NCBI RefSeq assembly: GCF_027942865.1
Contig: NC_134515.1
Coordinates: 16,717,227-16,781,226, forward strand
DNA: 64,000 nucleotides
Reading direction: 5' to 3'
Source: Odontesthes bonariensis
Lineage: Eukaryota; Chordata; Actinopteri; Atheriniformes; Atherinopsidae
Positions 44,073-48,304 of the stretch are shown piece after piece. The translations under genes were made by a program, and so were the position numbers. The notes beneath the pieces were generated by a model. The model was not told the origin of the DNA, searched no databases, and saw only the letters and a list, made by a program, of their open reading frames with translations. Position 1 is the stretch's first letter. Each line of letters opens with the position of its first letter.

Positions 44073-47000
44073 ATGACCAGGTGAGTGTCAGTTATTCATT
44101 TTTGGAAAATGATATTCAAAACTGCTTCCATCCAACCAATTCTCTCAGTGGGTTTTGTGTATTTGTCCTATTTTCCCTCCTTCGTGTCTCACTGAGTGTG
44201 GAAATGACAGGGTTATATGGCAACTTCTCATCCCCCGACTTCCCCCAGCCATACCCTGACAACCAGCACATAGTGTTGAACATCACCGTCCCACAAGGCC
44301 ACCGGATCAAACTCTACTTCACCCACTTCAGCTTGGAGCCCTCCAACCAGTGTGAATATGACTACATTCAGGTACATGTAGGAAAAAAAATTCCAATTAT
44401 CTGCTTGCATTGGACAGCTTGCTTACTGCAAGGCCTTTGACCTTGTCAAACCAGGTTTTGGCAGAGGGAAACGAAACCTTGCGGTTCTGCGGCGAGGAGG
44501 AAAAGAACTTTGAAAGCACCCCCAGGAACACCATCATCCTGTCAGCTGGGAACCTCATGTCAGTGGTCTTTAGGAGTGACTACTCTAACGAAGGTCGATT
44601 CACCGGCTTCCAAGCATTTTACACCTCAGAAGGTGATGCAAAATAGGGACATTTGTTGCCAGAAGGCATATGTATTTTTGGCCTTCATAATTGCACTGAG
44701 TAGAGAGTGGTGGAGCCTCTGTAGAAAGAATAGCAGATTTATATAATTACAAGAAAAGCAATGTATTAATGTCAAAGTGTGAGGAACTATAGCAGTATGG
44801 TGGCAGAAATGCAAAATAATATTGATAACTATGAGTAATTTGAGTGATCAAATAGGTATTGTTAGTTTACGTTGCATTAGATCGAGCAGAGACCAACCTT
44901 GCACTGGCTCTGTGGAAAGGGCGTTTTGATGTCGTGTATTAGAAAAGGTTGGGATGGCGCTGTTTCTGCCTCCAGGGATTGAACACAGCCAATTGTTGCG
45001 GGGGAAAGTCTGTGTCAGGAGTCCAGCACACGAGAGACAACAGCTTTGGAAATAAAGAAAGACAACAGACTACATGCATAAGTAACAGCGATAAATTACT
45101 GCAGGAATTGAGTGACTCATGAGTCACTGCAGGCAAAGCTAGACATTACTGAAGAAGGCACCTGATGTCACAAATGGTTTGAAGGGGAGTTTTTTTTTTT
45201 CTACAATTTCTGTTTCCAAAGTTTGCTTTTCTGATCTAAAGTTTTATTTTAACTGCCTTTGAGAATCACACCTGAAGCCCGTTGTAGCACTTTTAGATAC
45301 TTTTGGTATGAACTTGAGTTAAGACAAACCAAATTGTAGTATAATTGTAGCAATAGTGTGTTTAACTTCTAAAAGCTACGGTGGTGGCGTATGTCATTTA
45401 GGATAGTGCAAACAAGTTAATAACCAGAATTTACATAAGATTCACATACGTTTTGAAAACTATTCAAATGAAGTCGATCCCACGTTTTGTATTTGAAATC
45501 TGCTCATGGATGGAAAATGCTTACTTGTTGTGTAGTGACTCACTCTCCACCGTGTTTGTCTCTCTCAGACATCAATGAGTGTCTGTCCAAGGTTGATGGC
45601 GAGAGAGTGTGTGATCATTTTTGCCACAATTACATCGGAGGCTATTACTGCACGTGCAGGCAAGGATACCTTCTCCATGACAACAAAAGATCCTGCACAG
45701 GTAAGAGCCATACAAACTGGAGCTCAAGAGGCATGCTCATCTGGGCGCAATCAGATGTAGTAAAAGCTCTGCGGTGAGGTGCAGCGTTAAGAGCTCGGCA
45801 TGCAGCGTTGATCATTGATTTCTGTAAATAGGGTATGTTTCTCTGGCTAAATAAACTCCTTGTCAGCGCCTTACTGAGAGCCAATTTTCAAAAGAGGGCA
45901 ATTTTCAGAACTGTGAGATGTCTGTGAAGACACGTTAAATTCCACTGCATTTTTTGATACCAACACAATAATAATGCCCAAGCTTTGTCACAATTTCTTC
46001 GTGTGGTGCTGACATAGTTACAGACTTTCTGAGAAGATTACGTAGAAATACATTAAATGATTTTAGGAACATCTGTTCTAATCGTTTCACAGCTCTGCAG
46101 AACAAGTCTTCAAAATATACTTTTGTAATTTCGCATTGGGCCTGGAGTTTATAGTGTTACATACTGGATTTATTTCTATCACAGCTGGCCTGTGCTAACA
46201 ACTTTCGTACTGAAAAGGAATACTGACGCATGAAGTTGTTGATCTCTGCCAGTGGGTGTGTGGCGAGGTTAATCACTGTCGAATCCTAAGGGAAAAGCAA
46301 CTTCATAATGGCATTAAAAATTGATACCTGTGCGCAGCACTAATAGTGCACTGACACAAGGTAATTAATCACAATTACCAGCCGATCTGCCTTAAATTAT
46401 TATACTTTGCCAGGGGAAAAAGGATGGCAAAACAAATCATGCAATGAATAGACAAAAATGATTATCTGCCCACAGATTTTACTGATTATCTAAATCACAG
46501 CAACTCTTCCACGTTGCAATGCTCGTTTGTTTTTGTCCCTAACATCTGCATACTTAATGGGGCAATATCGCAAAGCCAAATGAATCCCATCATTAATGAT
46601 GCCATCATTTTTTTTTCAGTTCATGTGAAAATTTGTATTTCTTTGATTAGAAAAAAAAAAAAAACAACTTTATAGCTGATACGTTCCAATAATCCCTAAA
46701 CCAATATTTTATCTTATTTAGAAAACAGTCAGAAATCTGATTATTGATAAAAAAAAATTGCACTCATTTTGAATTGGATGGCAGTAACATGTCTCAAAGA
46801 AGTTGGGGGTGACCATGTATAATACAGATCCTTTTTTGACAACAGTCTGTAAATGTCTGGGAACTGAGGAGACCAGTTGTTGGACCTGCCAGCAGTCCAG
46901 TTCTTCTACTATAAATTCTTACCATTTTAATAGACGGAGTATGTGGTCTATCATTATCTTGCTCAAATATGCAAGACCTTCCCTGATAAAGACATTGTCT

Positions 47001-48304
47001 AGATGGGAGCATTTGTTGCTCTAAAACCTGTATGTACTTTTAAGCATTGACGATGCCTCTCCAGATGAGCAAGTTGCCAGTTCCAGAGACATTAATGCAC
47101 CCCCATATCATCAGAGATGCAAGCTTTTGAACTGAAGGCTGATAACAAGCCAGTTGATCCCTATCCTCTTCAGACAGTCCATAATTTCCAAAAAGAATTT
47201 CAAATTTCTGACCACAGAACAGTTTTCCATTTTCATTTCTTTGCATTTTGCAGATGCGTTTTTTACGTAGTTTGCCAAACCTCTGCCCATCTTTGCTTTC
47301 CAGAGATTCTGCCTCTTTAAGGTGCACTTAGTGTACCCAAACATGGATCTGACCTTTTCCACCTGACCTAATCAGTTACATGTTCCTTCACCTGTTGTTT
47401 TTTTTTTTTTTTAGTACCACTTACTTTTCCAGCTTTTTGTGGTCCCCATCCCAATTTCTTTGAGGTGCGTTGCTGCACTCAAATTCATAATGAGCCGACA
47501 TTTTTTTCCACCCACTTTCAACATCAGATTCATTTTCTAAATTCTTTTTGTAAATAAAAAATTGGTTTAGAAAATTTGCAAAACAATGCGGTCTGTTTTC
47601 ATTTACATTTCACGCAGCATCCAAACTTTTTGGAACTGAGCTTTGAAGATCGAGGTTTGAACACAAAATATTCAAGTCACGCCGCAGAACGTTCAACGTG
47701 TGTGCCTTCTCTGCAGTGCCATGCCAAAGCCAGGTGTTGATCTCTCCATCTGGGGTTCTCACCAGTCCGGGCTATCCGAGCCCCTACCCACCAATGAGCC
47801 AGTGTGACCACACTATCCGGCTACCGGAGGGCTCCAGAATTATCCTGGACTTCCTGGAACCCTTTGACATAGAGGGACACCAAGATGTCCCCTGTCCGTA
47901 TGATATGCTGAAGGTCAGTTCTGAGACTCCTGCGAGAGTATAACTCACAAGATAATGAATAAGCAATGTATTCCTCTACATGCCCGCGTGGTAGCCTGTC
48001 ACTGACATGTCCTCCTCGGGTGATATACGGTCATGTGGTTTCTTGTATATTTAAGCATGGCTCGACATCAGTCAGTCAGGTAATAAATCAACATCCCTCT
48101 CTTTTCTTGTTCGATGTCTCCTTTTGTAAGATCTCAACGGCAGGACAAGAGTACGGACCATTCTGTGGTCCAACGCCACCGGGCCGCATTGACACAGGGA
48201 GTTACGAGGTGCGTATTGCATTCAGATCCGACTCCAGTGGGAAAAACAAGGGCTGGAAGATCAAGTTCACCAGTACCAAAGCCCAATCTCTCACTTCTAA
48301 TTAG
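44073..48304 (+). CDS. masp2: MASP2-like CUB-EGF-CUB protein without protease domain, 6 exons
   Basis: Predicted secreted lectin-pathway protein. Exons: 44073-44080, 44149-44371, 44455-44632, 45569-45700, 47717-47913, 48131-48304; GT/AG junctions, phases agree, 303 aa. Signal peptide about 1-19; CUB1 about 22-136 ([35 protein letters not shown], very close to human MASP-2). A calcium-binding EGF module spans 137-180 ([17 protein letters not shown]). CUB2 covers about 183-296 ([35 protein letters not shown]). It then ends [12 protein letters not shown], where human MASP-2 (686 aa) continues into two CCP modules and a serine protease. No usable splice donor precedes the stop, a poly(A) signal follows, and no protease frame occurs before dffa. 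These domains normally dimerise and bind MBL or ficolin. I infer a MAp44/MAp19-like regulator. The symbol gives the locus; function may differ. Confidence 0.87.
45701..47716 (+). other. masp2-like intron 4
   Basis: About 2 kb, the largest intron of this gene, between the EGF exon and CUB2. About half of it is a Tc1-like transposon remnant (46640-47645). The rest shows no exon. In human, the MAp19 form is made by using an exon in the equivalent region after the EGF module. I looked for a short coding exon of that kind and could not identify one with confidence. Confidence 0.6.
46640..47645 (-). mobile_element. Tc1-like DNA transposon, decayed, with long inverted arms
   Basis: The minus strand encodes pieces of a Tc1-like transposase: [24 protein letters not shown], then [25 protein letters not shown], covering the second and third catalytic regions. 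The frame is broken several times. The two ends are inverted copies: CTCATTTTGAATTGGATGG near 46770 and, reversed, CTCATTATGAATTTGAGTG near 47490. Outer similarity (TAAACCAAT...TTTTATT) and a right end containing CCAAACTTTTTGGAA extend the arms. The arms would be about 150-200 bases. It lies in masp2-like intron 4, opposite to the gene. Confidence 0.75.

Follow-up and report, generated by a model that had tools for sequence, protein, structure and literature searches.

Does a gene in the position of MASP2 still encode a protease, or has it been reduced to the CUB1-EGF-CUB2 modules? This question is raised by a locus of Odontesthes bonariensis at positions 44073 to 48304 of the 64-kb window, by which we mean the whole stretch of DNA analyzed. 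Our preferred reading, to which we assign a probability of roughly 85%, is that this is the teleost MAp34 gene: a MASP2 orthologue without CCP and serine-protease exons, whose secreted CUB1-EGF-CUB2 product would compete for MBL-type lectins as a noncatalytic regulator. The gene structure, the domains, the neighboring genes, conserved residues, and the finding of no protease exon at the locus carry this reading.

Structure of the gene

Joining of open frames yields six coding exons, all on the forward strand. Exon 1 (44073 to 44080) provides the signal-peptide start (ATGACCAG), exon 2 (44149 to 44371) the remainder of a 19-residue leader and the first half of CUB1, exon 3 (44455 to 44632) the second half of CUB1, exon 4 (45569 to 45700) the calcium-binding EGF module, exon 5 (47717 to 47913) the first half of CUB2, and exon 6 (48131 to 48304) the second half of CUB2, a short tail, and the TAG stop. 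Pfam supports exons 2, 4, and 5, tilapia primers match at exons 2 and 3, residue alignment covers exons 3 and 5, and exon 6 was placed by frame and donor scoring; the leader was called by eye, with its cleavage site placed as in tilapia. Together, the exons form one 912-nt open frame with GT-AG at the junctions, encoding a predicted 303-aa protein that ends in KAQSLTSN, in which Pfam finds two CUB domains (1.3e-43) and a calcium-binding EGF (EGF at residues 137 to 179, CUB2 at 183 to 292). An AATAAA polyadenylation signal (48443 to 48448, forward strand) starts 139 bases past the stop. The window contains 0 Ns, and the locus is gap-free. The 303-aa, three-module model of the initial annotation is thus confirmed, as is its stop after KAQSLTSN with a poly(A) signal within 140 bases.

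Donor sites were scored with a simple base-frequency matrix, and the five real donors of the gene (1.5 to 8.5) set the range. The GT at the end of CUB2 (48273) scores -6, in keeping with the earlier view that no usable donor exists there; among the 20 GTs in 48131 to 48500, one falls within the range (48209; score, 4.2), in the middle of CUB2.

No CCP or serine-protease sequence was found by tblastn and Pfam in the stretch from the stop to dffa (48305 to 50763, about 2.5 kb). Five tblastn queries drawn from this genome, three of protease and two of CCP sequence, yielded only weak matches in the whole 64-kb window at E up to 10 (best, E 0.078); as a control, each recovered the locus it came from at 1e-36 or below. 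Cross-matches within the family were obtained with the protease queries (C1s to MASP-3 at 2e-17, C1s to C1r at 1e-23). With the C1r CCP query, the CCP next to C1s came up at no better than E 0.03, so the absence of CCP is less firm than that of the protease. Pfam gives nothing above its cutoff for the four open frames of ≥90 aa that separate the MAp34 stop from dffa; there is one weak match to an unrelated family (E 0.11). The claim that no CCP or protease frame precedes dffa therefore held up, more firmly for the protease. The initial annotation had also named sequence dropped by the assembly after 48304 as a way in which its view could fail; the window is without Ns and dffa follows about 2.5 kb downstream.

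Neighbors and probable orthology

The locus is flanked by dffa (50764 to 53883, reverse strand, bounds approximate, with its stop at about 50764), identified by DFF-C and CIDE-N Pfam matches with its last coding exon called by eye, and by an exosc10-like gene (5453 to 10013, forward strand, bounds approximate), which has a 3'-5' exonuclease by Pfam at 5453 to 5848; its frame at 9729 to 10013 was assigned by eye, Pfam giving no match there. These neighbors appear to fit human 1p36.22, the neighborhood of MASP2, with exosc10 and dffa. Elsewhere in the window, open frames at 22152 to 27929 (forward) and 39344 to 41076 (reverse) resemble, by eye, pieces of reverse-transcriptase retroelements, and a 148-aa open frame at 15635 to 16078 has no Pfam match at E 0.001.

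The CUB1-EGF-CUB2 protein shows 49.8% identity to rat MASP-2 and 49.6% to human MASP-3, with MASP-3 ahead by 8 bits, and in a PDB search MASP-3 (327 bits) and MASP-1 (325 bits) lead, about 10 bits above MASP-2. Since the identities are near equal and the PDB scores favor MASP-3 and MASP-1, sequence alone does not separate MASP2 from MASP1/3. A separate MASP1/3 gene exists on C14, with a CUB1 exon at 204737 and the C-terminal half of a protease whose best PDB match is MASP-3 (188 bits versus 96 for MASP-2). From the human gene order and this separate MASP1/3 gene, we infer that the locus is the MASP2 orthologue.

Match to published teleost MAp34

The initial annotation proposed a locus reduced to a noncatalytic product at the MASP2 position. 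The reduced product stands; its novelty does not, because it matches the published teleost MAp34 of Nile tilapia and tongue sole, and a protein of this kind is already known. A leader (by eye) followed by CUB1-EGF-CUB2, without CCP or serine protease and with a length of about 304 aa, is found here, together with a short tail after the terminal CUB2 exon and a nearby AATAAA (the tilapia tail being read from a primer, frame inferred). OnMAp34 of Nile tilapia is 305 aa long, 19 of them signal, and its 3' untranslated region spans 153 bases with AATAAA (PMC7435015); it shares with the product here the three modules, the signal length, the short 3' untranslated region, the primer sites, and an LTSD-type tail. 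Of the six MAp34 primers published for tilapia, the comparison covered three, the forward expression primer and the two qPCR primers. The expression primer (PMC7435015) matches 44198 to 44221 with one mismatch and starts at the VEMTG codons, which correspond to residue 20 here, and the two qPCR primers match at 44451 and 44534 with one and three mismatches; by chance, 0 to 0.01 such matches would be expected. The forward qPCR match begins 4 bases upstream of exon 3, and the end of exon 2 is alike. A tilapia reverse primer, reverse-complemented, reads TLTLTSD in the presumed frame, compared with AQSLTSN here. CsMAP34 of tongue sole has 304 aa, EGF at 137 to 180, and CUB2 at 183 to 295 (PMC5180248), domain borders nearly identical to those of the 303-aa product here, and the legend of a figure in that paper names 11 homologues, from pike and salmonids to cichlids.

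Our data go beyond these papers in two respects: no exons of CCP or protease type turned up as splicing partners, and there is no good donor at the end of CUB2. For OnMAp34, alternative splicing of MASP-2 is given as the origin (PMC7435015), whereas no MASP-2 exons for such splicing were found here.

Human MAp19 (sMAP) consists of CUB1-EGF only and arises by alternative splicing of the gene that also makes MASP-2; like MAp34 here, it is a noncatalytic product of the MASP2 locus, but it is shorter and made by splicing. Human MAp44 (MAP-1) is a product of the MASP1 gene with CCP1 and its own terminal peptide; like the MAp34 proposed here, it is a noncatalytic competitor at MBL and ficolins, from which it differs in its MASP1 origin and in having CCP1. 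A MASP2 transcript without the serine-protease domain is described in the hammerhead shark (PMC6795676), likewise a protease-free MASP2 product, but in a cartilaginous fish in which MBL was not identified.

Proposed function

The locus would make only a calcium-dependent, dimer-forming CUB1-EGF-CUB2 scaffold. Among 31 aligned positions, 12 putative calcium ligands or MBL contacts are identical in MAp34 here, MASP-3, and MASP-2 (MASP-3 numbering): E49, Y56, D57, E80, D102, S104, N105, E216, H218, Y225, D226, and D263. Position 103 is Tyr, as in MASP-2. No source for the MBL contact residues was found in the literature searched. In MASPs, dimerization and attachment to the MBL collagen stalk are functions of CUB1-EGF-CUB2 (PMC7435015). 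This role, together with the conserved residues, makes it likeliest that MAp34 competes for MBL with the MASP1/3 product. With its conserved CUB residues, secreted MAp34 would attach to the collagen stalk of MBL-type lectins, and its competition with the MASP1/3 product would amount to noncatalytic regulation of the lectin pathway. Judging from residue conservation, the MAp34 of this fish would probably bind MBL in a calcium-dependent manner.

Published results conflict on whether such regulation is negative, as the initial annotation suggested in calling the product a lectin-pathway inhibitor. In tilapia, MAp34 attaches to MBL in competition with OnMASP-1 and reduces lectin-pathway activity (PMC7435015), which supports the inhibitor role, whereas tongue sole MAP34 is reported to recruit MASP1 to MBL and to promote complement (PMC5180248), a difference from the competitor proposed here.

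Genome-wide search for a MASP-2 protease

Our genome-wide statements rest on two scans of the assembly, a Trypsin scan, in which 150 of 398 first-look candidates were scored and at least 176 matches obtained, and a CUB-EGF-CUB scan, in which 130 of 213 candidates were scored. In the latter, the MASP1/3 gene on C14 ranks first beyond the window (49%), with no scored place there exceeding it in similarity to CUB1; together with the Trypsin scan, this gives no support to another MASP2 copy elsewhere, one of two outcomes foreseen by the initial annotation. The other, no classical MASP-2, agrees with the scored candidates: no active MASP-2-type protease was found among the matches listed and followed, and the CCP1-CCP2-serine protease arrangement of MASP-2 was found neither in the window nor, with 150 of 398 Trypsin candidates scored, in the genome. 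The Trypsin matches listed include none on C15 closer than 1 Mb to the window.

Frames were listed for 11 loci with Trypsin matches, 2 of which lack a GDSG frame; the follow-up left out L035, L049, and most lower matches. A gene with CUB, CCP, and protease at 13.03 Mb on C12 was rejected as MASP2, being PAMR1-like by eye, with CPSDTGG replacing the catalytic motif, and six other high matches (L029, L030, L032, L033, L034, and L037) were judged coagulation-factor-like by eye only.

Alternative explanations

Could a separate paralogous gene have taken over the catalytic function of MASP-2? We regard this as quite unlikely. C1r-like copies have multiplied beside C1s on C6; the CUB-EGF-CUB pieces of one copy match MASP-3, C1s, C1r, and MASP-2 almost equally (140 to 135 bits), and the C-terminal protease piece of another ranks factor IX first, with MASP-3 and MASP-2 above C1r. 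These two shorter queries give mixed family rankings in the PDB and are not diagnostic, whereas the whole protease pieced together from a C6 copy is C1r by PDB score (195 bits versus 162 for MASP-2), and its single-exon neighbor is C1s (171 bits versus 131). A protease-like stretch on C1 near 19.79 Mb (19785922 to 19786425) has MASP-2 as its best PDB match, by 0.2 bits over haptoglobin, a tie from which we conclude that the Trypsin scan reaches the MASP-2/haptoglobin branch. Against its being MASP2, it has GDAGG in place of GDSGG and the preceding exon has TAGRN at the catalytic His site, both catalytic motifs being changed relative to the standard forms; the stretch reads as a haptoglobin-like domain devoid of the catalytic His and Ser. 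Nor does any other scored place match the CUB1 of MAp34 as well as MASP1/3 does. That the locus is instead a decaying MASP2 remnant, as the missing catalytic half might suggest, is highly improbable: frame, splice sites, and poly(A) signal are intact, the residues are conserved, and the relatives are expressed, with the protein present in the blood or serum of two fish (PMC5180248, PMC7435015).

Alternatively, a full-length MASP2 may exist with MAp34 as one of its splice forms, its CCP and protease exons lying elsewhere or lost by the assembly. The tilapia paper presents MAp34 in this way (PMC7435015), MASP2 records exist for zebrafish and eel (PMC11312191), carp MASP-2 is said to be cloned (per PMC7435015), and a second tongue sole sequence, XP_008316895.1, bears an accession adjoining that of MAP34 (PMC5180248). 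The scans scored part of the candidates (130 of 213 and 150 of 398), and the GT at 48209 inside CUB2, of donor strength, counts against a locus making MAp34 alone. The assembly is a further reason for caution. By tblastn in 40 kb of C14, only the first CUB1 exon and the C-terminal half of the protease of MASP1/3 were found; the locus (C14, 200001 to 240000) lies within long tandem repeats with a 500-N gap, and the assembly seems to lack MASP1/3 exons in this gapped array. As MASP1/3 is itself incomplete, failure to find MASP-2 in the assembly does not yet mean that the animal lacks it. Nevertheless, we consider a full-length MASP2 unlikely: the window is gap-free, with dffa close by and no protease found in 64 kb, the end of CUB2 has no good donor, the listed Trypsin matches include none on C15 within 1 Mb, and OnMASP-2 appears a single time in the main text of the tilapia paper, as the parent of MAp34, the experiments there using OnMASP-1 (PMC7435015). 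The MAp34-only gene remains our preferred explanation.

Implications for the lectin pathway

Under this explanation, the MASP-2 protease may have been permanently lost and only MAp34 kept in this fish and perhaps in many euteleosts, a proposal that we hold tentatively, at somewhat less than even odds. We found no published statement of such a loss in these fish in the open-licence papers searched. The zebrafish and eel MASP2 records and the cloned carp MASP-2 indicate that MASP-2 loss is not general in teleosts. According to a review, the MASP-1 isoform is altogether absent from fish (PMC10855846); if this is right and MASP-2 is lost, MASP-3 would be the sole remaining MASP protease of the lectin pathway, and MBL-driven cleavage of C4 and C2 would proceed via another enzyme, e.g., the C1r/C1s copies, or be nonexistent. 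If the gene makes MAp34 alone, the protein would compete with products of MASP1/3, and fish lectin-pathway models built on the mammalian pattern would need revising. MAp34 has been treated in fish as a MASP-2 splice variant (PMC7435015).

The C6 genes (26440001 to 26470000) are arranged as tandem C1r-like copies, two with nearly whole proteases and a third partial, beside one C1s-like gene. In the C1r-like copy that was read, the protease lies in three frames, as if split into exons, and that of C1s lies in a single frame.
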